Shown: positions 20,376-35,542 of the stretch, piece after piece | Layout of the letters: every line of letters begins with the position of its first letter | Position numbering within the stretch: the stretch's first letter is position 1 | NCBI GenBank assembly: GCA_024639335.1 | Contig: JAHEIN010000008.1 | Coordinates: 1-41,458 of the forward strand | Length of the DNA stretch: 41,458 bases | DNA from: a bacterium | GTDB lineage: Bacteria; Actinomycetota; Acidimicrobiia; Spongiisociales; ZC4RG35 | Direction of reading: 5' to 3' | The notes under the pieces: generated by a model | What the model was told of the DNA's origin: nothing | The model's database searches: none | Seen by the model: only the letters and a program-made list of their open reading frames with translations | Program-made: the position numbers and the translations under genes

Positions 20376-21125
20376 TCAGATCCCGAGCGCAGCCTCCAGC
20401 CCGACCTCGACACCAGACACGTCGACGACGTGGCGGACCGCCGCCAGCACGCCTGGCATGAACGAGGCACGATCGGTGGAGTCGTGCCTGATCGTGAGTA
20501 CTTCGCCGAGGTTGCCCATGACGACCTCCTGGTGTGCCAGCAGGCCTGGGAGCCGAACCGAATGAATCGGGACGTCGGCGACCGATCCACCCCGGACGCC
20601 GGCCGTGCTCTCGGTCGACTCGGTGCGCCGGACCTGGTCGGGGTTGGCTGCGCCGATGCGCTCTGCGGTGGACATCGCCGTCCCCGAGGGGGCGTCGGCC
20701 TTCTGGTCGTGATGCAGCTCGATGATCTCGGTGGCTCGGAAGTAGGGCGCAGCCACCTCGGCGAAGCGCATCATCAGCACCGCGCCGAGCGAGAAATTCG
20801 GCACGATCAGACACCCCAGCTCTTCCGGCCAGAACGACTCGACGTCGCCTTTGGAAACACCCGATGTGCCCACGACCACGTGACATCCCAGCTCGGCCCA
20901 TTGTCGAATGTTTCCGATCGCCACGTCAGGAAGCGTCGATTCCACGACGACGTCGGCGGCGGCGCAGACCTGCGAGTCGTCGGAGACGGCGAGCCCGGCG
21001 ATCGTCTCGGAGGAATGCCCCGGGCCGTAGAGCGCCACGAGCTCGAGGTCGGCAGTGTCAGTGACCGCCTCGGCGATCAATCTGCCCATCCGGCCTGATG
21101 CACCAGAGATCGCCACATTGATCAT
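20376..21125 (-). CDS. dapB: 4-hydroxy-tetrahydrodipicolinate reductase
   Basis: MINVAISGASGRMGRLIAEAV, EIIELHHDQKADAPSGTA. Confidence 0.95.
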   Translation of the reverse strand: MINVAISGASGRMGRLIAEAVTDTADLELVALYGPGHSSETIAGLAVSDDSQVCAAADVVVESTLPDVAIGNIRQWAELGCHVVVGTSGVSKGDVESFWPEELGCLIVPNFSLGAVLMMRFAEVAAPYFRATEIIELHHDQKADAPSGTAMSTAERIGAANPDQVRRTESTESTAGVRGGSVADVPIHSVRLPGLLAHQEVVMGNLGEVLTIRHDSTDRASFMPGVLAAVRHVVDVSGVEVGLEAALGI

Positions 21126-22372
21126 CGCAGGTGCTTCTCGAGATCGGCGGCATCGAACGGGCCGACCGCGCCGATGAGCTTCGGACCGGAAAGCACGGTC
21201 TCGGCCACGTTTCTGATGTCATCCAACGTCACTGCCTCGACACGTTCGATTCGCTCGTCGACGCTGAGGTGATCGAAGCCGATGAGTTCGGCCCTGCCGA
21301 GACGGACCATCCGGCTCGAGGCGTCCTCCATCGCAAGCGCCAGACTCCCCCGCATCGCTCCACGGGCTCGCTCGAGCTCATCCTCGGTTATCCCATTCGA
21401 GATGACCGACTCCAGTTCCTGGTGGATCAGTTCGAGCACGGTGTCGATCTGATCAGGCGTGGTTCCTGCGTAGACACCCCACGTTCCGGCATCGGCATAG
21501 GAGGTCTTGAACGAATACACCGAATAGGTGAGGCCCCGTTCCTCGCGAATCGAGGTGAACAGTCGCGATGACATGCCGCCACCCAGCACCAGATTGAGCA
21601 CGTCGAACGCCCAGCGTCGATCGTCCGCCCGGTCGATGCCCGAGCCGCCGATGATCACATGAGCGGCCTCGGTGTCCCGCTCGACCAGCCGTATCTTCTC
21701 GGGAGGATGGATCGTGGCGAACTCGTGGTCGAGCGGATCCCCGGACCAGTCGCCGAACAACGCCCCGACCTGGCCGACGACATCGTCGTGATCGACCGAA
21801 CCTGCCAGCGCAACGACGACGGACCCTGCTCCATACCGCCGTTTCCAATAGCCGTGGATGTCGTCTCGCGTCATGCCTCGGATCGACTCGCGAGTCCCCA
21901 AGACGGGTGCCTCGAGCGGGTGCCCCTCGAACACCGAGGCCATGAACAGTTCGAACGCGACATCCGATGGATCGTCTTCGGCCATGTTGATCTCTTCGAT
22001 CACCACCTGCCGTTCGGCATCGATCTCCCTTGCCCGAAAGGCGGGCCTCTGGAGCATCTCGGCAAGCATGCCGAGACCGTCCGGGAGATCCTCGTCGAGC
22101 AGCCGTGCCCAGAAACAGGTGTGGTCTTTGCTGGTGAAGGCGTTGGACTCGGCACCCATCGCATCGAATCGTTCAGAGATCTGGCGTGCCGAGAGATCGT
22201 CGGAGCCCTTGAACAGAAGGTGCTCGAGAAAGTGGGAGGCGCCGGCCTCGTTGGCGTCCTCGTCGCGGGTGCCGGTGTCTATCCAGCATCCAACGGCCAC
22301 CGACCGGATGCCTGGCATGTTCTCGGTGATGACCCGCAACCCGTTCGGGAGCGTGGTGAGCTGGTAGTGCAT
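21122..22372 (-). CDS. M16 family zinc peptidase (processing-peptidase-like)
   Basis: ASHFLEHLLFKG (HxxEH) and downstream Glu region; start at MHYQL supported by TACCAT-N7-ATG upstream. Confidence 0.9.
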   Translation of the reverse strand: MHYQLTTLPNGLRVITENMPGIRSVAVGCWIDTGTRDEDANEAGASHFLEHLLFKGSDDLSARQISERFDAMGAESNAFTSKDHTCFWARLLDEDLPDGLGMLAEMLQRPAFRAREIDAERQVVIEEINMAEDDPSDVAFELFMASVFEGHPLEAPVLGTRESIRGMTRDDIHGYWKRRYGAGSVVVALAGSVDHDDVVGQVGALFGDWSGDPLDHEFATIHPPEKIRLVERDTEAAHVIIGGSGIDRADDRRWAFDVLNLVLGGGMSSRLFTSIREERGLTYSVYSFKTSYADAGTWGVYAGTTPDQIDTVLELIHQELESVISNGITEDELERARGAMRGSLALAMEDASSRMVRLGRAELIGFDHLSVDERIERVEAVTLDDIRNVAETVLSGPKLIGAVGPFDAADLEKHLR

Positions 22373-22379
22373 CGCCACC

Positions 22380-22385
22380 ATGGTA
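22380..22385 (-). promoter_or_regulatory. Leaderless -10 candidate TACCAT-N7-ATG
   Basis: Upstream of the M16 peptidase start at 22372. Confidence 0.5.
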
Positions 22386-22418
22386 CGGATCGCCAGAGGG
22401 ATACCGACAACGGATCGG

Positions 22419-22424
22419 TACCCT
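22419..22424 (+). promoter_or_regulatory. Leaderless -10 candidate TACCCT-N7-GTG
   Basis: Upstream of the DUF4230 gene. Confidence 0.5.
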
Positions 22425-22431
22425 CTGGTGA

Positions 22432-23157
22432 GTGACTCAACGAGAAGACACCGCGCCCGCCGATGATCAGCCGACTCCGGCGCCGAGGCAACGCACGGGC
22501 ATGGACCGCATCGGCAGGATGATCCTGATCGGGTTGGGGATCGCTGCACTGGTGTTGATCGGCTCGCTCGCATACATCGCCGGAAGGGCAGCCGAGACCG
22601 TGGCGGATCTGGGAGATCAGACGGCCGTCATCACCGGAGAAGGCGAGTTCACACGGCTCGGGCCGGTCACCGCCCAATCGCTCAGGGAGCTCTCCGAGCT
22701 GACCACGGTCGAAATCCTCCAGTACACCACCATCGAGAAGGGCGAAGACCGCGGGTGGTTGAACTGGGCGGCAGGGGATCAGATCTCGATGTTCGTGGTG
22801 GCTTCGATCGGCGCGGGTGTGGACCTGGCAGAGGTGACCGACGACGACATCCTCGCCGACCCCGAGACCGGACAGGCGGTCGTCCGCCTCCCGGCCGCAG
22901 ACATCACCTACATCGCCCCTGACACGGAGGCGACCCACGTCTACAACCGCCGAACCGGCGTGTTCACGAAGGGCAACCCCGATCTCGAGCGCTCCGCCCG
23001 GCTCGCGGCGGAGGAGGTCCTGTTGGTCCAGGCGCTCGACTCCGGCCTGCTGGAGCGGGCCGAGACGAGGGCGGTCACCGTCCTCGAAAGCCTGATTCGC
23101 AGCCTCGGTTACACCGATGTCACGGTGGTCGTCGAAGCTGACACCGCCAAGCGCTAG
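22432..23157 (+). CDS. DUF4230 domain protein
   Basis: GTG start; single N-terminal TM; LTTVEILQYTTIEKG...VRLPAADITYIAPD typical of DUF4230. Confidence 0.7.
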   Translation: MTQREDTAPADDQPTPAPRQRTGMDRIGRMILIGLGIAALVLIGSLAYIAGRAAETVADLGDQTAVITGEGEFTRLGPVTAQSLRELSELTTVEILQYTTIEKGEDRGWLNWAAGDQISMFVVASIGAGVDLAEVTDDDILADPETGQAVVRLPAADITYIAPDTEATHVYNRRTGVFTKGNPDLERSARLAAEEVLLVQALDSGLLERAETRAVTVLESLIRSLGYTDVTVVVEADTAKR

Positions 23158-23263: not shown

Positions 23264-25369
23264 ATGCGCGCCCGGAGCACAACCGTTCTGCGAGACATGT
23301 TGCCCTCCGATGCGGGCAACATCGAGGACGTCGTTGCGCGATATCAACGGGTCGCGCCGGCCGTGACTCGCTTCGCCCGGAGTCTGTCCGGCAACGACAA
23401 ACTGAGAGTTCGGCTCGGCGCCGAGTCCACGTCGTCGGACGACGAGGTCGTGTGCGATCCCAGGATCTTCCAGGCTGCCTACAACCGCAATGCACCGGTC
23501 ACTGCCGACGAGACCGCGCTCGCCTCTGCACTGCACGAAGTCGTCCACTTGATCTCCACAGATCTCGAAGAGGCGCGGGTGGTTCCGGATCATTGGCCGA
23601 TCAGGTCCGGCAGCGACGTCCCCACCGACCTGCCGGTGGACCTTCTGTCGGCGATCGAAGCGGTCGGCGGACCACTGGTGGAGTCCATGTTCTTCACTCT
23701 GGAGGACGCCCGTCAGGAGCGGGTCAGCCTCGACGTGTACCCCGGTGCACGATCGGTGCTCGCGGATCTCTATCGCGCCGGATTCACGGAGTCGATTCGC
23801 CAATCCGGGCCGCTCGCCCAGTTCGCGCTCGGTGTGTTTCTCCTGACCGGCGGCTACGCCGGACGCGACCGCCTCGAGCGGCGGCTGGACGGGCGAGCTG
23901 CCGTGGCGCTCGCCGAGGCCCAGGACGCGATCGACGAGACCATCGCCGCAACCGACCCCTGGGAGGTCGCCGAACAAGCCATCGTGCTCATCGAGATCGC
24001 CCGTGCGAACGGGCTGCTCACGAAGCTGAGCGAGCAACCGTCCAACGAGGAACGGAAAGCCCAGCAGCAGGTCGATGCCGACTCGATGGCCCAGGGCGTC
24101 GACCGGGTGCGGCTCAACTCGCCCATCGTCCGGGATGCGGAGAGCTACAACGAGGCCAAGCGAGCGGCTCAGGCGCGTGCCGGGCTGTCGGACCGCAAGG
24201 GGGCCTCCGAACTGGGTGGTGACGCCTCCACCGACCAACTGTTGAAGGTGTCGGAGGCACCCACCGTATTCCTGCCGACCGGTCAGGGCGGCAAGGTCGT
24301 TGTCACTCGCCCGCCGATGGCGTTCAATCGGTTCGCGAACGAAGGCCGAGAAGCCATCAACGACGCTGCCAGGAAGTGGGACGTGGCCCAGCGGGGCGTG
24401 TCCGGAGAGCTGTTCCCCCTGTTCGCGGCCAATCAGCGCCGGGGATTGCGGTCGGGCTACGACCAGGGCGATGTGTCGCCGCATTCGGCTCTGTTCATCG
24501 GAGCAGGCCTCTACACCCGCATGTACGAGCGGCGCGCCGCACGCACCCGACGCACATACGCGGTCTCTTTGCTGGTCGACGGCTCGGCGTCGATGCTGCA
24601 GCCCCGCACCGGTCAACGAGGCCTGAAATCGTCATGGGGCATGCCCAGTGCGTTGCTCGGCGCCTGGACGCTCGCCCGGTTGTGCGACGAGCTCCAGATC
24701 GACTTCGAGGTGGCGCTGTTCAACCGATCGTTCGCCGCATCCCCGACCGACACCGAGTGGTCCTACACCCGGACCCGGAGCCAGGCGACCGGCGGGCTCC
24801 GCCAGAGTCAGGGAAGCGCCGCCACCCGACTCACCACCACGGTGAACCATTACCTGGCCAAACCTTTCGATCGGCGCTGGCGTGAAGCGGAGGGGCTCAT
24901 GGCCGGGATGTTCTACGCCGCGGCGGAGCCGAGGTCGGCATCGACGGCAGCAAGACGCGATCCCCGCTCCGCCCCGCCGGTCTCGATGTTCGACAAGGCC
25001 TCCAACGTCGATGAGTTCAATCTGGTCGTGGCCGCCGAACGGATGGGGCGACTCGGCGCGAACGTTCGTGTGCTGGTCGTGCTCGCAGACGGCATGACCA
25101 GGGGCTCGCTGGAGGGACTTCAGGCCACGGTCGCAGACATCGAACGCAACGGGACGACCGTTTTGGGGATCGGCATCGGTGACGACACGGTGTGCTCTGC
25201 GTATGAGCGGAATCAGGTCGTCGAGAGTCCCGATGAGCTGACCCGAGCCATGGTCGACGGCGTGCGCTCTTCGCTTCGTCGATCGTTGGCCAAGAGCGGA
25301 ATGGAAACCTGGTGGCTTCGGAGCGCCCGACCCACCTCGAACATGTGGAAGGAAGCGGCGAATGCCTGA
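23264..25369 (+). CDS. VWA-domain protein with N-terminal zincin-like HEVVH motif
   Basis: ETALASALHEVVHLISTDLEEARV...FFTLEDARQERVS; C-terminal VWA MIDAS VSLLVDGSASM; overlaps the AAA gene by 8 bp. Confidence 0.8.
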   Translation: MRARSTTVLRDMLPSDAGNIEDVVARYQRVAPAVTRFARSLSGNDKLRVRLGAESTSSDDEVVCDPRIFQAAYNRNAPVTADETALASALHEVVHLISTDLEEARVVPDHWPIRSGSDVPTDLPVDLLSAIEAVGGPLVESMFFTLEDARQERVSLDVYPGARSVLADLYRAGFTESIRQSGPLAQFALGVFLLTGGYAGRDRLERRLDGRAAVALAEAQDAIDETIAATDPWEVAEQAIVLIEIARANGLLTKLSEQPSNEERKAQQQVDADSMAQGVDRVRLNSPIVRDAESYNEAKRAAQARAGLSDRKGASELGGDASTDQLLKVSEAPTVFLPTGQGGKVVVTRPPMAFNRFANEGREAINDAARKWDVAQRGVSGELFPLFAANQRRGLRSGYDQGDVSPHSALFIGAGLYTRMYERRAARTRRTYAVSLLVDGSASMLQPRTGQRGLKSSWGMPSALLGAWTLARLCDELQIDFEVALFNRSFAASPTDTEWSYTRTRSQATGGLRQSQGSAATRLTTTVNHYLAKPFDRRWREAEGLMAGMFYAAAEPRSASTAARRDPRSAPPVSMFDKASNVDEFNLVVAAERMGRLGANVRVLVVLADGMTRGSLEGLQATVADIERNGTTVLGIGIGDDTVCSAYERNQVVESPDELTRAMVDGVRSSLRRSLAKSGMETWWLRSARPTSNMWKEAANA

Positions 25370-26354
25370 AACGATGATCTTCGAAGACCCGAGCGGGGCA
25401 AGTCGTCCCATCGAGCTCGAGAAGTTCACGGTCGACTCCGGTCTGGGGGATGCCGAACAACGAATCGGCAAGATCCCGGTTCCCGACCCGAACTACGTCG
25501 ACCTGGGAGTGCTGTATCGCTTCGCACAGGTCGAAGAGGTGCGCCGACAGAATCCCGAAGGGTTCGTGCCTTTGCATCTGGCAGTGCGCGGCCACATGGG
25601 AACCGGCAAGGACCACGACATCGAGCAGTTCGCCGCTCGACTCGGACTCCCCTACTACCGGATCCCGCTCACCGGAGAGGTCCGGGATGTGACCCTCATC
25701 GGCTCGACGAAGCTCCACGGGGATGGTGCCGGCGGTACCGAATCGCGCTGGGAGGACGGCGACATCACACGAGCACTTCGAGGACCCAGCCTCATCAACC
25801 TCTCCGAGCTCAATGCCGCCGGCGCCGAGACGCTGTTCGCTCTTCACGGATTGCTCGACCGGTACTCCGCTCTCGACCTCCCGAACGGGGAGACCGTCGC
25901 GTTGCGTGAAGATGTCCGAGTGTTCGGCACGATGAACCCGACCGACCTGCGTGATTACGCCGGAACGCAGACGCTGAACAAGGCGTTTGCCGACCGCTGG
26001 GTGATCTGGGAGAAGAACTTCCCGGGTCTCGAGCAGGTCGAGGCGATGCTGCGGAGGAGGTATCCAAGGATGAATGACCCGTTCGTGGAGGCGATCGCCC
26101 GTCTCGGACTGGAAGTGAACGCCAGCTTCGAGTCGCTCGACGCCGGGACCAGGGTGGAGACACCATTGAGCCTGCGCAGCCTGCTGGACCGGATGCCCAC
26201 CGGCCTCATGATCCATGAGGACGCCGAAGACCCGCTCAGGCTGGCCTGGGAGGAATTCGTGCTCCCCCACGTCGACATCTACGACCGCGACCACTACGAG
26301 ACCGTCTGGAGCGCGGTGGTCCGCAAGGGACCCCCGGCACCGGCCTTCAGCTGA
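25362..26354 (+). CDS. CobS/MoxR-like AAA+ ATPase with atypical Walker motifs
   Basis: LAVRGHMGTGKDHDIEQFAARLGLPYYRIPLTGEV, LINLSELNAAGAETLFALHGLLD, VFGTMNPTDLRDYAGTQTLNKAFADRW. Confidence 0.85.
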   Translation: MPETMIFEDPSGASRPIELEKFTVDSGLGDAEQRIGKIPVPDPNYVDLGVLYRFAQVEEVRRQNPEGFVPLHLAVRGHMGTGKDHDIEQFAARLGLPYYRIPLTGEVRDVTLIGSTKLHGDGAGGTESRWEDGDITRALRGPSLINLSELNAAGAETLFALHGLLDRYSALDLPNGETVALREDVRVFGTMNPTDLRDYAGTQTLNKAFADRWVIWEKNFPGLEQVEAMLRRRYPRMNDPFVEAIARLGLEVNASFESLDAGTRVETPLSLRSLLDRMPTGLMIHEDAEDPLRLAWEEFVLPHVDIYDRDHYETVWSAVVRKGPPAPAFS

Positions 26355-26452: not shown

Positions 26453-26479
26453 GGCGCAGAGCGGATGGCGCAGAGCGCC
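26453..26479. repeat. GGCGCAGAGCG direct repeat, 14-nt spacing, ending in hairpin GGCGC-AGA-GCGCC
   Basis: GGCGCAGAGCG at 26453 and 26467. Confidence 0.7.
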
Positions 26480-26487
26480 AAGGGCCA

Positions 26488-26493
26488 TACACT
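26488..26493 (+). promoter_or_regulatory. Leaderless -10 candidate TACACT-N7-ATG
   Basis: Upstream of the LOG-family gene. Confidence 0.5.
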
Positions 26494-26500
26494 CCTGCCA

Positions 26501-27583
26501 ATGGCCTATGACACGGGGAATCCCGAACTCGATGCGACGATCGCCGAACTCGTGGCGACCGCCTCGACCAACGGCAACGCCGACCTCATCTCCGAGATGA
26601 TCACCACGGCGCTCAAGCTGCACCGGGACGGCGCACCGCGTGGCGACCTCAAGTTGGTCAACACGGCACTCAAGGAGATGCGGTACTCGATGCTCGTCTT
26701 CAGTCGGCACACCGAACCGAAGGTCACGATGTTCGGTTCGGCCCGGCTCACTCCCGACAACCCCGAATACCAACTGGCAGAGCGTTTCGCCAAGATCATG
26801 GCGGATCGTGGCTGGGGCGTGATCACCGGCGCCGGCCCCGGGATCATGGAAGCGGGAAACCGCGGCGCCGGTCCGGAGAACTCCTATGGCGTGAACATCC
26901 GCCTTCCATTCGAGGAGTCTGCCAACGGGTTCGTCGATCCCGATCGGGTGGTCAACTTCAAGTACTTCTTCACCCGGAAGCTGGGTTTCGTCAAGGAGTC
27001 CCACGCCTTCACCCTGTTCCCCGGAGGATTCGGAACGCTGGATGAGAGCTTCGAGCTGCTCACGTTGATCCAAACCGGCAAGAGCGACCTGCATCCCATC
27101 GTCCTGCTCGAGACCGAAGGCTCCGGCTACTGGCAGCCGGTGGTCGACTTCTGTCGGAATGTGCTGATCGAACAGGGCCTCATCGGCCCCGAGGACCTCA
27201 ACCTCTTCCAGAGGGTCCATGATCCGGAAGAAGCCGCCGACGTGATCTGCCGTTTCTATGCCAACTATCAGAGCCAGCGCTACGTCAACGGCCGGCTGGT
27301 GCTCCGACTCCTCGAGGCTCCGGACACCGACACCCTGGCACAGCTCAACCGGGCGTACGTCGACATCATGACCAACGGCGAGATGGAGGTCATCGAACCC
27401 ACTCCAGCAGAGGTCCGCGACGAGGACTCGTTGGAATTCGCTCGCGTTGCGTTGTGGTTCGACCGGAGGCATTTCGGTCGCCTTCGCATGCTGATCGACG
27501 ACCTCAACGCCATCGTCGAGGAGCGCACATCGGTCCATCCACCGTCGCCGTTCGCCGAGGAGCAGGCCGACCGCAGCTGGTGA
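26501..27583 (+). CDS. LOG-family (TIGR00730-like) Rossmann-fold protein
   Basis: VITGAGPGIMEAGNRGA and FTLFPGGFGTLDESFELLTLIQTGK (PGGxGTxxE motif). Confidence 0.9.
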   Translation: MAYDTGNPELDATIAELVATASTNGNADLISEMITTALKLHRDGAPRGDLKLVNTALKEMRYSMLVFSRHTEPKVTMFGSARLTPDNPEYQLAERFAKIMADRGWGVITGAGPGIMEAGNRGAGPENSYGVNIRLPFEESANGFVDPDRVVNFKYFFTRKLGFVKESHAFTLFPGGFGTLDESFELLTLIQTGKSDLHPIVLLETEGSGYWQPVVDFCRNVLIEQGLIGPEDLNLFQRVHDPEEAADVICRFYANYQSQRYVNGRLVLRLLEAPDTDTLAQLNRAYVDIMTNGEMEVIEPTPAEVRDEDSLEFARVALWFDRRHFGRLRMLIDDLNAIVEERTSVHPPSPFAEEQADRSW

Positions 27584-27632: not shown

Positions 27633-28364
27633 GTGCGCGAAATACTCTCTGACCTCGTTGCGGAACAGCAGTTCCTCGATCAGTTCCTCCAGCAGGTGAA
27701 TCTCAAGCTGTGGGACAAGGAGACCTCCGCCCAGGGGTGGTCGATTCGTGACACCATCTCGCATCTCGCCGACTACGAGGAGCTCGCGGCCGCAGTCATC
27801 GCAGGCGAGGCCGACCTCGAGCGTTACCGATCGGCATCCGATCTCGATGTGGTTCGCCAGGAAGCCGTCGAGAAAGGACGCAAGATGCGTCCACAGGACG
27901 TCATCGAGTGGTGGCGCAACGGGCGGGCGAAGGTGGTCGAGCCGCTCTCACACATGCAGGCGTCGGACCGGGTCGAGTGGATCACCGGCGACGTCAGCGC
28001 CAAGACCCTCGCCACGACCCGCCTGATGGAGACCTGGGCGCACGGGCTCGACATCTATGCGGCCACTGAAGCCGAGATCGAAGACACGCAACGAATTCGT
28101 CATGTCTGCTGGCTGGGATGGAAGGCGCTGCCCCACAGTTTCAAGGAAGCGGGGCTCGACTATGTCGCTGTGAGGGTCGAGGTCATCGGACCGGGATACG
28201 CCAAATGGGTGTACGGGACCGAGGACGCTCCCAACTTGATCAAGGGCTCCGCGTCGGATTGGGCCCGACTGGCAGTCCGGCGCATCGCGCCCGAGGACAC
28301 ACGCCTCAAACTCACCGGTGAAGGCGCCGAGCAGGCCGTTCGGGTGGTTCAGGCCTACCTGTGA
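27633..28364 (+). CDS. DinB/maleylpyruvate isomerase-like (TIGR03084-type) protein
   Basis: GTG start; GWSIRDTISHLADYEELAA ... METWAHGLDIYAA. Confidence 0.75.
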   Translation: MREILSDLVAEQQFLDQFLQQVNLKLWDKETSAQGWSIRDTISHLADYEELAAAVIAGEADLERYRSASDLDVVRQEAVEKGRKMRPQDVIEWWRNGRAKVVEPLSHMQASDRVEWITGDVSAKTLATTRLMETWAHGLDIYAATEAEIEDTQRIRHVCWLGWKALPHSFKEAGLDYVAVRVEVIGPGYAKWVYGTEDAPNLIKGSASDWARLAVRRIAPEDTRLKLTGEGAEQAVRVVQAYL

Positions 28365-29146
28365 GCATTCCCTCCCTCATCGGGATGGTCCATCTCGCAC
28401 CCTTGCCCGGGGCGCCCCGCTACCGAGGTTCGATGCAGGAGATCGTCGAGCTCGCCCTCGCCGACGCCGCAACGCTGGCCGAAGCCGGATTCGACGCCGT
28501 GATGGTGGAGAACTTCGGCGACGCGCCCTTCTTCCCCGACGAGGTGCTTCCCGTCACCGTTGCTGGCTTGACGCGCGTGATGACCGAGATCGGCCACGCC
28601 ATCGACCTCCCGATCGGGGTGAACGTGCTCCGAAACGACGCGCTCGGAGCGATGTCGATCGCAGCCGTGACCGGAGCTGCTTTCATCCGGGTCAACGTGC
28701 TCTCGTCGATGATGTACACCGACCAGGGTCCCATCGTGGGCCGAGCAGCCGAGCTTGCTCGACTCAAGACGGCCATCGGGCCTGACGTGATGGTGCTGGC
28801 AGACGTGTTCGTCAAACATGCAACACCACCCCCGGGTGCGACGATCGAACTGACAGCCATCGACACCTGGGAGCGATCTGGTGCCGACGCCTTGGTGATC
28901 TCGGGCACCGGCACCGGGGCGTCGGTCGATCTCGAAGACCTCCGGCGAGTTGCCAGAGTCGTGCCAGAGGCACCACTCGTGATCGGATCCGGGGCAGATG
29001 CCGGCAACGTCGGTTCCCTGGCCGAAACCGTCCACTCGGTCATCGTTGGCTCGTCACTGAAGCCCGATCACGACGTGTCGCTCCCGGTCGACCGCGCACT
29101 CGCCGCTGCGTTCGTGGATGCCGCCCGCTCCGCCGGCCTGACTTGA
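28361..29146 (+). CDS. BtpA/SgcQ family protein
   Basis: IGMVHLAPLPGAPRYRGSMQEIVELALADAATLAEAGFDAVMVENFGDAPF; GTGA overlap with upstream gene. Confidence 0.9.
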   Translation: MSIPSLIGMVHLAPLPGAPRYRGSMQEIVELALADAATLAEAGFDAVMVENFGDAPFFPDEVLPVTVAGLTRVMTEIGHAIDLPIGVNVLRNDALGAMSIAAVTGAAFIRVNVLSSMMYTDQGPIVGRAAELARLKTAIGPDVMVLADVFVKHATPPPGATIELTAIDTWERSGADALVISGTGTGASVDLEDLRRVARVVPEAPLVIGSGADAGNVGSLAETVHSVIVGSSLKPDHDVSLPVDRALAAAFVDAARSAGLT

Positions 29147-30893: not shown

Positions 30894-31013
30894 TCAGCCG
30901 ATGAGGTAGGCGCCGAGCAGCTCGTGTGGTAGTTCGACGACGATCGTCCCGCCTTCGATCCTGATTGCGACCTCGACTGTCTGGCCGGCGAGCGCGGTCT
31001 CATGTGTTGGCAT
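30894..31013 (-). CDS. Possible 39-aa small ORF
   Basis: MPTHETALAGQTVEVAIRIEGGTIVVELPHELLGAYLIG*, below the ORF-track cutoff; the frame can extend to ATG at 31052 or 31058. Confidence 0.3.
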   Translation of the reverse strand: MPTHETALAGQTVEVAIRIEGGTIVVELPHELLGAYLIG

Positions 31014-31156
31014 GTTCTCTCCATGCCTCCCCGACCGCCTGCCCAACACCATACGCATCGAATCTGAGATTGGAAGCGGAACGTTCGGACGGCCGGCGCT
31101 TCATCCCCTCCATCTCCGAGCGGGTGCGACCACTGCAGTTTGTCCGAGTGATCAGA

Positions 31157-31162
31157 TACGCT
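31157..31162 (+). promoter_or_regulatory. Leaderless -10 candidate TACGCT-N6-ATG
   Basis: Upstream of lhr; supports the start at 31169. Confidence 0.5.
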
Positions 31163-31168
31163 CGCACC

Positions 31169-34100
31169 ATGTTGCCGTCACAGTTCATGCCGGCCACGAA
31201 AGCGTGGTTCGAGGCGTCCTTTCCCGCGCCGACCGACGCTCAGGCGCAGGGATGGCAATCCATCTCATCAGGGAACCACACTCTGATCCACGCTCCGACC
31301 GGATCGGGCAAGACACTCGCAGCGTTTCTCTGGACGATCGACCGACTGCTTCACGAGCCGCTCCCGGAGGATCTCGAACGCACCCGCGTCCTGTATGTGT
31401 CACCGATGAAGGCGCTGGCGTATGACATCGACCGCAATCTGCGCGCTCCACTGCTCGGTATCCGGCACGCTTCCGAGCGAATCGGCGGCGACTCCCTCCC
31501 GGAGATCACCACGTTCCTGAGGACCGGGGACACACCCGCGGTCGACCGGCGGCGAATGCAGAAGCATCCGTCGGACATCCTCATCACGACCCCGGAGTCC
31601 CTCTACCTGCTGCTCACGTCACAGGCCCGAGAGACCCTGCGCTCGGTGCGCCATGTGATCTGCGACGAGGTGCATGCCGTTGCAGGCACCAAACGGGGCG
31701 CGCATCTCGCCCTGAGCCTGGAACGGCTGGAGGAACTCACGAGCGTCGAGCCTCAGCGGATCGGCCTTTCGGCCACGCAGCGCCCACTGGAGACGATCGC
31801 GGGCTTCCTGGGCGGCGGGACCATCGAAGGCGACACCTGGACCCCGCGTCCGGTCACGATCGTCGACACTCCCGGCGAACGCGCAATCGATCTCGAGCTG
31901 GTCGTGCCCGTCGAGAACATGGCTGAGCCCGATGAGCCCGATCCGCTCGATCCGGATCGGATCCGCACCAAGTCGATCTGGCCGGCCGTGTACCCGCGGG
32001 TGCTGGACCTGATCGAACACCACAACTCGACCATCGTCTTCGCCAACTCCAGGCGGCTGGCCGAACGGGTGTGCAACGAGCTCAACCACCTGGCGGGTGA
32101 GGAGATCGCCCGCGCCCATCACGGATCGGTGGCACGCGACCAGCGAATCGAGATCGAAGAGGCACTCAAACGCGGGGCACTGAAGGCCGTCGTGGCGACC
32201 AGCTCGCTGGAGTTGGGAATCGACATGGGTGCGGTGGACCTGGTGATCCAGATCGAGGCTCCGATCTCTGTGGCGAGCGGGCTCCAGCGGGTTGGCCGGG
32301 CCGGGCACTCGGTGGGTGAGGTCTCGACTGCGAAGCTGTTCCCCAAATATCGGGGCGACCTCCTGCTTGCGACCGTCCTGGTCGATCGAATGCTGGAACG
32401 CCAGGTCGAGCAGACGAAGATCCCCCGCAATCCGATCGACGTGCTCAGTCAACAGCTGGTGGCATCGGTCGTGATCGAAGATCGGACCGTCGACGACCTC
32501 TTCGACATGACGCGCCGCGCCACGCCTTATCGCGAGCTCTCCCGGTCGGTGTTCGACGCCACGATGGACATGCTCGCCGGCCGCTATCCGTCGGATCTGT
32601 TCTCCGAGCTCCGGCCACGGGTCGTCTGGGATCGGATCGACGGCTCGGTCACGGCGCGTCGCGGTGCTCGTCAACTCGCGGTCGCCAACGCCGGGACAAT
32701 CCCTGATCGCGGCCTGTACCGGGTGGTACTGCCGGAGGGTGGCCGGGTAGGCGAGCTGGACGAGGAAATGGTCTATGAGTCCAGGGTGGGGGACCTGTTC
32801 ATCCTGGGCTCTTCGACGTGGCGAATCGTCGATATCGGGCCGGACATCGTCCAGGTGGTCCCTGCACCCGGAGAGCCCGCAGCCACGATGCCGTTCTGGC
32901 ACGGCGATGCCGTGGGACGCTCCCTCGACACCGGCAAGGCCGTCGGCGCCTTCGTCAGAGAAATCGGGGCGATGACGCCGGAGTCGTCAGAGCGCCGGCT
33001 CATCGAGGAATACCACCTCGACGAGCTGGCTGCGAGAAACCTCATTGCGTATCTCGAGGAGGAGCGAGCAGAGGGCGGGGTCCTCCCGACGGATCAGACT
33101 CTGGTTGTGCAGCGGTTCCGCGATGAGATCGGCGACTGGCGGGTGGTGATTCTCTCCCCGCTCGGTGCCAAGGTCCATGCCCCGTGGGCCATGGCGACCA
33201 CTCAACGGTTGCGTGAGCGGTACGGCACCGATGTCGACGTGATCTGGTCCGACGACGGGATTGCCTTCCGGTTTCCCGACACCGACGACATCCCAGCGAC
33301 CGAAGAGCTCATCCCAGAGCCCGAGGAACTCGAACCGCTCCTCACCGAACACTTGGCGGATTCGGCGATGTTCGCAGCCCGATTCCGGGAAGCCGCAGGC
33401 CGAGCGCTGCTTCTCCCCCGCCGCCGCCCCGGACAGCGGACACCACTCTGGCTCCAGCGGAGAAAGGCCGCCGATCTGCTGAGCGTCGCTCGCCAGTTCG
33501 GGTCGTTCCCGATCATCCTGGAAACCTATCGAGAGATCCTCCAAGACGACTTCGACGTCCCGTCGTTGCGGGAGGTCCTCGCCGACATCAGGTCCCGCCG
33601 GATCCGGGTGGCCGAGATCTCCACCGAGAGCCCCACACCATTCGCATCGTCGCTCCTCTTCGCGTTCGTCGCTGCGTACCTGTACGAGGGCGACACCCCG
33701 CTGGCCGAGCGGCGAGCCGCCGCGCTCACGCTCGACCGAGAGATGCTTCGCGAGCTCCTGGGCGAAGGGGAGCTGCGCGACCTCCTCGATGCAGACCAAC
33801 TGGCCACGCTCGAATTGGAGCTGCAGAGGCTCACCGAGGGGCGGCAGGCGAATGGCGCCGACGGCATCGCCGATCTGTTGGCATTCCTCGGTCCGCTCAG
33901 CACCGACGACATCGAGCTTCGGACCTACGACACCGACGTCGTCGCCGCCTTGGCCGAGTTGACCAGCTCGCGGAGGGTCATCGAGGTGACCATGAAGGGC
34001 GAACGCCGATACGCCGCGGTCGAGGATGCCGGACGGCTCCGTGATGCGCTCGGCATCCAGCCTCCTCCCGGCATCGCCCATGTGTTCCTCGAACCCGTCG

Positions 34101-35542
34101 ACGACCCGTTGGGCGATGTGATCGGTCGCTACGCCCGCACCCATGGCCCCTTCACGACCGAAGCAGCGGCAGGCTCGCTGGGATTGCCGGTCGGCGTCGT
34201 GTCCACGGCGCTCCGACGCCTCGACGAACAGCGCCGTGTGGTGCAGGGCGCGTTCCGCCCCGGCGGGTCCGACCTCGAATGGATCGACTCCGACGTGCTC
34301 CGGACTCTCAAACGACGGTCCCTCAGCGCATTGCGCTCCGAGATCGAGCCCGTCACCGGGGACGCGCTCGGCCGTTTCCTCCCGGTATGGCAAGGTGTTT
34401 CGAATGATCCTCCAACCGGTCGCGGGCCGATGCTGGAGGTCGTGCGACGGCTCCAGGGAGCAGATCTGCCGGCTTCGGTATTGATCAACGACGTGCTCCC
34501 CTCCCGTCATGCGGACGCCGAGACCGTGCTCGATCAATTGATGATCGAGGGAGAACTGGTATGGGCAGGACGGGGCACGCTCGGCGCACGGGACGGCAAG
34601 CTCGCCCTGTACTTCCGGGATCAGCTCCCACTGCTCTGGGTGCCCCCGGTCGGAGACCCACTCGACGATGAGCTTCATCAGGCGATTCGCAACCACCTCG
34701 AAAAACGCGGCGCCAGCTTCTTCAAAGCGATCTACCTGGCGTGCGGCGGTGGCGATGTCGCCGCCGTGCTCGACGCCCTCTGGGATCTGGTGTGGGCCGG
34801 TGAGATCACCAACGACACCTTCGCCCCTGTCCGCGCATTCGGGCTGGCCCGTCGTACGAAGTCATCAGGGCGGCCGACGGTGACTGCGGCCTTCCCGGCC
34901 CATGCCTCGGGCCGCTGGTCGCTCGTGACTGATCTCCTCGAGGATGTCATCGAGCCGCCGTCCGGTACCCAGCAGGCGACGGCATGGACCCACCAGCTGC
35001 TCGATCGTCACGGGATCGTCACGCGCCTGAGCGTCGCCGCAGAAGGACTCCCTGGCGGGTTCACCTCGGTGTATCCGGTACTCCAGCATCTCGAGGAGAC
35101 CGGCAGGGCGCGCCGCGGCTACTTCATCGAGCGCTTGGGCGGTGCACAGTTCGCGCTGCCCGGAGCCGTCGACCGCGTGCGAAGCGCTCCCGAGCACTCG
35201 GTCACCATCCTGGCATCGACCGATCCGGCGAACCCGTACGGTGCGGCGCTCGACTGGCCCGCGATCGAGGACGGTCGGATCGGCCGCATCGCCGGAACGT
35301 ATGTCATCCTCGCCGACGGTCACCTGGTCTGCTATCTCGACAGACGAAAGCTGCGGACCTTCGCGCTCGACCCCGACCACTACACGATGGTTGCCTCGGC
35401 GATCGCCTGGCTCGGAGACCGATCCCGTCGCCTTCGAATCGAGTCGATCGACGGCCAACCACCAGCACAGACCGAGCTGGGGCGAGTGCTCGCCGAGGTC
35501 GGATTTGCGCCGGCGCTGCGCGGCCTGTCGTATCGCTCCTGA
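31169..35542 (+). CDS. lhr: Lhr-family large ATP-dependent helicase
   Basis: HAPTGSGKTLAAFL, ICDEVHAVAGTKRGAHLALSLERL, LELGIDMGAVDLVIQ...RVGRAGHS; about 1457 aa from ATG at 31169. Confidence 0.93.
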   Translation: MLPSQFMPATKAWFEASFPAPTDAQAQGWQSISSGNHTLIHAPTGSGKTLAAFLWTIDRLLHEPLPEDLERTRVLYVSPMKALAYDIDRNLRAPLLGIRHASERIGGDSLPEITTFLRTGDTPAVDRRRMQKHPSDILITTPESLYLLLTSQARETLRSVRHVICDEVHAVAGTKRGAHLALSLERLEELTSVEPQRIGLSATQRPLETIAGFLGGGTIEGDTWTPRPVTIVDTPGERAIDLELVVPVENMAEPDEPDPLDPDRIRTKSIWPAVYPRVLDLIEHHNSTIVFANSRRLAERVCNELNHLAGEEIARAHHGSVARDQRIEIEEALKRGALKAVVATSSLELGIDMGAVDLVIQIEAPISVASGLQRVGRAGHSVGEVSTAKLFPKYRGDLLLATVLVDRMLERQVEQTKIPRNPIDVLSQQLVASVVIEDRTVDDLFDMTRRATPYRELSRSVFDATMDMLAGRYPSDLFSELRPRVVWDRIDGSVTARRGARQLAVANAGTIPDRGLYRVVLPEGGRVGELDEEMVYESRVGDLFILGSSTWRIVDIGPDIVQVVPAPGEPAATMPFWHGDAVGRSLDTGKAVGAFVREIGAMTPESSERRLIEEYHLDELAARNLIAYLEEERAEGGVLPTDQTLVVQRFRDEIGDWRVVILSPLGAKVHAPWAMATTQRLRERYGTDVDVIWSDDGIAFRFPDTDDIPATEELIPEPEELEPLLTEHLADSAMFAARFREAAGRALLLPRRRPGQRTPLWLQRRKAADLLSVARQFGSFPIILETYREILQDDFDVPSLREVLADIRSRRIRVAEISTESPTPFASSLLFAFVAAYLYEGDTPLAERRAAALTLDREMLRELLGEGELRDLLDADQLATLELELQRLTEGRQANGADGIADLLAFLGPLSTDDIELRTYDTDVVAALAELTSSRRVIEVTMKGERRYAAVEDAGRLRDALGIQPPPGIAHVFLEPVDDPLGDVIGRYARTHGPFTTEAAAGSLGLPVGVVSTALRRLDEQRRVVQGAFRPGGSDLEWIDSDVLRTLKRRSLSALRSEIEPVTGDALGRFLPVWQGVSNDPPTGRGPMLEVVRRLQGADLPASVLINDVLPSRHADAETVLDQLMIEGELVWAGRGTLGARDGKLALYFRDQLPLLWVPPVGDPLDDELHQAIRNHLEKRGASFFKAIYLACGGGDVAAVLDALWDLVWAGEITNDTFAPVRAFGLARRTKSSGRPTVTAAFPAHASGRWSLVTDLLEDVIEPPSGTQQATAWTHQLLDRHGIVTRLSVAAEGLPGGFTSVYPVLQHLEETGRARRGYFIERLGGAQFALPGAVDRVRSAPEHSVTILASTDPANPYGAALDWPAIEDGRIGRIAGTYVILADGHLVCYLDRRKLRTFALDPDHYTMVASAIAWLGDRSRRLRIESIDGQPPAQTELGRVLAEVGFAPALRGLSYRS

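Follow-up and report, generated by a model that had tools for sequence, protein, structure and literature searches.

In P-loop enzymes, the Ser or Thr of the Walker A motif is a ligand of Mg2+ and forms a hydrogen bond with the Asp of Walker B (PMC7758060, PMC9599734). According to PMC9599734, P-loop NTPases show strict or almost strict conservation of these two residues. Within a 41,458-nucleotide stretch of acidimicrobial DNA, here called the window, one gene encodes an AAA+ ATPase in which the two residues appear to have changed places, with an Asp in Walker A and a Ser in Walker B. The locus raises the question whether this exchange is genuine, how widely it is shared, and whether an ATPase of this kind can work as a motor.

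Sequence and predicted structure of the ATPase

The gene and the motifs of its product are located as follows.

25362..26354, + strand: AAA+ ATPase of 330 amino acids, CobS/NorQ/CbbQ (MoxR-like, helix-2-insert) kind, by open reading frame, AAA_5 match, model and fold match
25590..25613, + strand: Walker A GHMGTGKD, residues 77-84, invariant in 102/102 distinct proteins
25611-25613, + strand: codon GAC, Asp84 at the Walker A Ser/Thr position
25701..25757, + strand: hairpin of the helix-2 insert, residues 114-132, with strands 114-120 and 126-132, from the model
25788..25808, + strand: Walker B SLINLSE, residues 143-149, with Glu149 kept, from homologues and model
25803-25805, + strand: codon TCC, Ser148 at the Walker B Asp position
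25935..25937, + strand: sensor-1 Asn192, invariant
25995..25997, + strand: Arg finger Arg212 (ADRW), invariant and aligned with the DR of CobS and MoxR
26175..26177, + strand: sensor-2 Arg272 (PLSLR), invariant and aligned with MSPR of CobS

An earlier note, made from the DNA alone, had described this reading frame, the GHMGTGKD motif, the Walker A Asp and the Walker B Ser exactly as found here, and Pfam, alignment and structural model agree. The protein belongs to the Pfam family AAA_5, which it matches with 47.7 bits against a curated cut-off of 22. It departs from the GK[S/T] plus hhhh[D/E]E pattern of that class, with GKD and NLSE in all 102 distinct proteins; Lys83 is retained in Walker A. 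Judged by their motifs, the other AAA_5 proteins of the same genomes are canonical: those that could be read with a regular expression, in ten of the exchange-bearing genomes, had GKT with D or E.

The AF2 model of the ATPase (pLDDT 89.7, pTM 0.88) places a helix, residues 83-94, directly after the P-loop and starting at Lys83, and a strand at residues 143-148, corresponding to β3, with Ser148 at its tip. In an alignment with distant relatives (n = 25), Asp84 falls into the GK[S/T] column and Ser148 is aligned with the leading acid of the Walker B motif [D/E]E. A Walker B motif elsewhere in the protein, which the earlier note had named as a possible refutation, was rejected because the model has β3 at residues 143-148 and the alignment is in agreement.

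Sequence profiles of the ATPase match Midasin, CobS, CbbQ and NorQ, and the AAA rings of Midasin/Rea1 were the top phmmer matches in the PDB. When the model was compared with the PDB by Foldseek, the first matches were AfCbbQ2 (6l1q, E 1e-17) and NorQ (9qh6, E 4.5e-17), with a probability of 1.00. The predicted fold agrees with the ring structures of NorQ and CbbQ, and the model contains the β-hairpin insert in helix 2.

Distribution and origin of the exchange

Both changes, D84 and S148, were present in 102 of 102 distinct homologues, derived from 132 loci. Invariant across these proteins were K83, D84, S148, E149, N192, R212 and R272, and also His78, His85 and Asp86, so that the Lys, the Walker B Glu, the sensor-1 Asn and the Arg finger, listed as kept in the earlier note, are kept throughout. 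Close homologues with canonical GKS/T and DE would have pointed to an isolated mutation or error, but all of them carry the exchange. Its codons vary, with GAC and GAT for the Asp and four TCN codons plus two AGC for the Ser. In a comparison with a copy from the same genus, dN was ~0.06 and dS ~0.80 (dN/dS ~0.08). An artefact of sequencing, assembly or alignment has a negligible probability: the exchange is common to independent MAGs and complete chromosomes from two clades, and the shared residues are encoded by differing synonymous codons, for which reason this explanation was rejected.

The gene was found, almost always as a single copy, in 94 of 99 near genomes of the window's order. A class-wide search of 296 genomes yielded strong matches in this order and in one other family (f12), whose genomes belong to the same class but have a size of ~1 Mb and a GC content of 30-35%. 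The ATPases are ~65-91% identical within the window's order and 56-58% identical to those of f12; between the two clades the VWA protein encoded next to the ATPase is only 28-29% identical. When 85,462 species genomes were scanned with six exact peptide patterns, 80 loci were obtained, all in MAGs and mostly labelled Acidimicrobiia or Actinomycetota; beyond the Actinomycetota, phyla were sampled by this one pattern-limited scan and by plasmid and phage records. Four loci with a gene 69-76% identical (L048, L051, L101 and L108) are titled "Acidobacteria bacterium"; L048 and L051 (genomes G013 and G011) fall in the window's family, and the records are probably mislabelled MAGs.

The nearest relatives outside the exchange-bearing clades were 23-39% identical, and none had the exchange. 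Two genomes of the phylum contain relatives with GKT/EE (L141, L142), and two genomes of the class contain CobS-like relatives with GKS/DE (L125, L126). Plasmid, phage and MoxR-like relatives had GK[S/T] with [D/E]E, except for one GKT/NE and one GKN/DE, the latter in a MoxR-like protein on a faecal phage contig (L164, MT836279.1). Among viral contigs, a profile search identified three relatives with canonical GKS or GKT, and a search with a DNA pattern for GH-x-GTGKD returned 25 stretches, none of which belonged to the family of the ATPase and four of which were phage dNMP-kinase-like.

Single-change intermediates, i.e. GKS with SE or GKD with DE, were found neither in the close set nor among the relatives compared. 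In a maximum likelihood tree, whose outgroup includes several long branches in an uncertain order, the GKD/SE proteins lie on one side of a single branch (SH-aLRT 99) and f12 forms one group (96). As the nearest outside relatives lack the exchange, it is placed by these sequences as a single origin, with both changes on one stem branch. With both columns invariant and no intermediates, the exchange counts as one event in which neither column changes without the other. The compensated swap proposed in the earlier note therefore stands as a swap, which is clade-wide, but not as a compensation; because no intermediates were found, compensation is something that we infer.

The VWA partner and the neighbouring genes

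Directly upstream of the ATPase gene and on the same strand, a gene for a protein with a VWA domain was present in 132 of 132 loci, at a spacing of -108 to +131 bases. In the window its stop codon overlaps the start of the ATPase gene by 8 bases.

23297..25369, + strand: VWA partner, 690 amino acids, zincin-like N-domain and C-terminal VWA domain; start set by homology, reading frame open from 23117
23534..23548, + strand: HEVVH (HExxH), residues 80-84, in a helix; H80, E81 and H84 in 87/87
23717..23719, + strand: Glu141, candidate third metal ligand, in 87/87
24578..24592, + strand: MIDAS DxSxS of the VWA domain, residues 428-432, invariant
24839-24841, + strand: MIDAS Thr515, invariant
25088-25090, + strand: MIDAS Asp598, invariant
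26465..27583, + strand: LOG/TIGR00730 Rossmann-fold gene, next downstream in the window's order, 67/88 loci
27633..28364, + strand: DinB-fold gene of TIGR03084-like type, with the linkage shared by the ~1 Mb genomes, 68/77 loci with enough flank
28361..29146, + strand: BtpA/SgcQ-family gene, linked in both clades, 49/72 loci with enough flank

The MIDAS of the partner is intact, D428, S430, S432, T515 and D598 all being invariant, and the ATPase is thus accompanied, as MoxR-like ATPases are, by a VWA co-chaperone with a MIDAS. In the partner model, helices 70-87 and 125-144 carry the HExxH motif and Glu141, respectively, as in zincins. No Pfam family and no curated peptidase family matched the N-domain above its cut-off, the only peptidase matches being SprT-like with E values of 0.04-0.24. 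Going by sequence, the partner probably represents an undescribed metallopeptidase-VWA family. Foldseek gave the MIDAS domain of MDN1 (Midasin) and NorD as its best matches, and this NorD comes from the same NorQD complexes as the NorQ matched by the ATPase. In a search of 397 genomes of the phylum, a sample that excludes the ~1 Mb family, the partner occurred only in the window's order, so that it did not turn up beside an ATPase with canonical motifs.

The fold of both halves, the adjacent genes, the intact MIDAS and the helix-2 insert are shared with NorQ-NorD and CbbQ-CbbO, which differ from the present pair by lacking the Walker A Asp, the Walker B Ser and a zincin-like N-domain with HExxH in the partner. 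Genes for nitric oxide reductase or Rubisco were not seen beside the ATPase gene. Midasin/Rea1 resembles the pair in that its MIDAS domain (MDN1) is matched by the partner, but here the ring protein is a single protomer, the VWA domain is not fused to it, and the residues are swapped.

The closest named sequence family is CobS-CobT, with which the motifs GTGK..IEQ.A and GTQ.LN.A..DRW and the sensor-2 region are shared; the best curated match of the ATPase is CobS (TIGR01650, E 3.7e-12), and the VWA domain of the partner resembles CobT_C, which was matched weakly in 26 of 43 partner members. The two genes might accordingly be read as a drifted motor pair (CobS/CobT) of a cobaltochelatase or Mg-chelatase. 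This reading is very improbable: CobS has GKS with DE, the score of 46.1 bits is far under the TIGR01650 equivalog cut-off of 558.55, the partner has an intact HExxH, and CobN/ChlH (PF02514) was absent from all 35 genomes tested, both clades included, whereas 5 of 14 control genomes were positive. A cobaltochelatase identity was rejected on the absence of CobN/ChlH from these 35 genomes. The two Acidimicrobiia genomes with a canonical CobS-like GKS/DE gene (L125 and L126; G251 and G297) are likewise without detected CobN. In L126 this gene is directly followed by a CobT-like VWA gene, whose product has CHSDLDLH where the partner has HExxH, and by sequence these CobS-like genes perhaps represent another orphan motor pair.

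In a 30-genome sample of the class, BtpA was present in 6 of 6 ATPase-bearing and in 0 of 24 ATPase-less genomes; since the six genomes form two related clades, this co-occurrence gives a lead to a client but no evidence for it. Genes of the TIGR03084-like type are spread more widely. Elsewhere in the window, a long Lhr-type helicase is encoded at 30965-35542 (NF007284, 1384 bits; cut-off, 1496). A DUF4230 protein is encoded at 22432-23157, and because its start overlaps the 5′ extension of an M16 peptidase reading frame (21122-22573, - strand), the M16 start probably lies further in than that of the reading frame.

Probable catalysis at the exchanged magnesium site

An acid in place of the Walker A Ser/Thr has precedents. 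The motif is GKE in sigma-54 activators such as PspF, which are active AAA+ proteins, and the PspF variant E43D, which has GKD, showed a Vmax of 22 per min compared to 40 per min with an unchanged Km (PMC3419264). PspF nevertheless keeps the Walker B Asp (D107), belongs to another AAA+ clade and has no VWA partner. Its D107A variant lost more than 99% of the activity (Vmax down ~170-fold) with Glu43 present (PMC3419264), and thus a Walker A acid alone does not replace the Walker B Asp. A GKD P-loop also occurs in working P-loop enzymes, the phage dNMP kinases including the solved T4 enzyme (1dek); these are kinases and not AAA+ rings, and the phage relatives appear to keep the Asp at the strand tip (VVITD). 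Four of the phage proteins of this kind (L190, L195, L196 and L202; Pfam DNMK or P-mevalo_kinase) have the P-loop GHAGTGKD, which from its sequence looks like an independent acid at this position. The earlier note's statement that no such subfamily is described holds for the residue pair within the reach of the searches, but the Walker A acid is not unique, in view of GKE in PspF and GKD in phages.

We favour a reading that we give slightly better than an even chance, in which the ATPase is the motor of a two-gene NorQ/NorD-like AAA+/VWA remodelling machine and hydrolyses Mg-ATP with exchanged Mg-site ligands. It is the best reading because all residues for hydrolysis are invariant, and for a working motor also speak the near-universal, single-copy occurrence in the order, the retention in ~1 Mb genomes, the stronger conservation of the ATPase than of its partner between the two clades, the fold matches of both proteins and the constant gene order. 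We infer hexamer formation, ATP binding and hydrolysis, the Mg2+ geometry and the handling of a client. The ATPase would form a hexameric ring on which the VWA protein docks, with a client held through the MIDAS, and ATP turnover would twist or pull the client or the zincin-like N-domain of the partner, with metal insertion, maturation or proteolysis as the outcome. For NorQD, metal insertion is driven by twisting of the VWA domain in the MoxR ring (PMC13036017). At the active site, Mg2+ would be ligated or oriented by the carboxylate of Asp84 on helix 1, to which Ser148 at the β3 tip would be hydrogen-bonded, and Lys83, Glu149, Asn192, Arg212 and Arg272 would have their usual roles. The more far-reaching proposal of a fully active ATPase with an inverted Ser/Thr-Asp pair across two deep clades, serving as the motor for a zincin-VWA metallopeptidase, is made tentatively.

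The main rival reading is that the ring binds nucleotide but hydrolyses it very slowly or not at all, acting as a conformational switch or scaffold while the metal sites of the partner do the work. That both Mg-site positions differ from nearly all P-loop ATPases is in line with this, as is the loss of activity in PspF D107A. Yet Glu149, sensor 1, the Arg finger and sensor 2, on which hydrolysis and its coupling depend, are invariant in 102 proteins with ~43% divergence, which weakens the scaffold option already raised in the earlier note and makes it less likely than a working motor. Pseudo-ATPases usually lose some of these four elements.

Tuning of the site to another cation, with Mn2+, Fe2+ or Ca2+ preferred over Mg2+ or turnover responding to free metal, is improbable. 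Asp84 would add a hard carboxylate beside the invariant His78, His85 and Asp86, and relatives of the ATPase clade act in metal insertion (PMC9976466, PMC13036017); His78, however, is also present in canonical relatives (L141, L171-L173).

The fold and the two-gene layout are already known. As far as the openly accessible literature and the collections searched extend, no AAA+ site has been described that is otherwise intact but has its Ser/Asp pair inverted. A short hydrogen bond between the Walker A Ser/Thr and the Walker B Asp has been proposed as a proton trap that starts hydrolysis (PMC9599734), and Asp84 could not fill the catalytic role of the Ser in the same way in this model. If the ATPase hydrolyses normally, AAA+ hydrolysis could do without the hydroxyl of the K+1 Ser/Thr, in contradiction to the proton-trap model, in which this hydroxyl is the base. 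A clade with both residue types in exchanged places separates the role of Mg ligand from that of base, and the exchange-bearing clades are in this sense a natural experiment on ATP hydrolysis. For the organisms themselves, the locus represents a near-universal two-gene machine with a probable metallopeptidase domain that is kept even in genomes of ~1 Mb.
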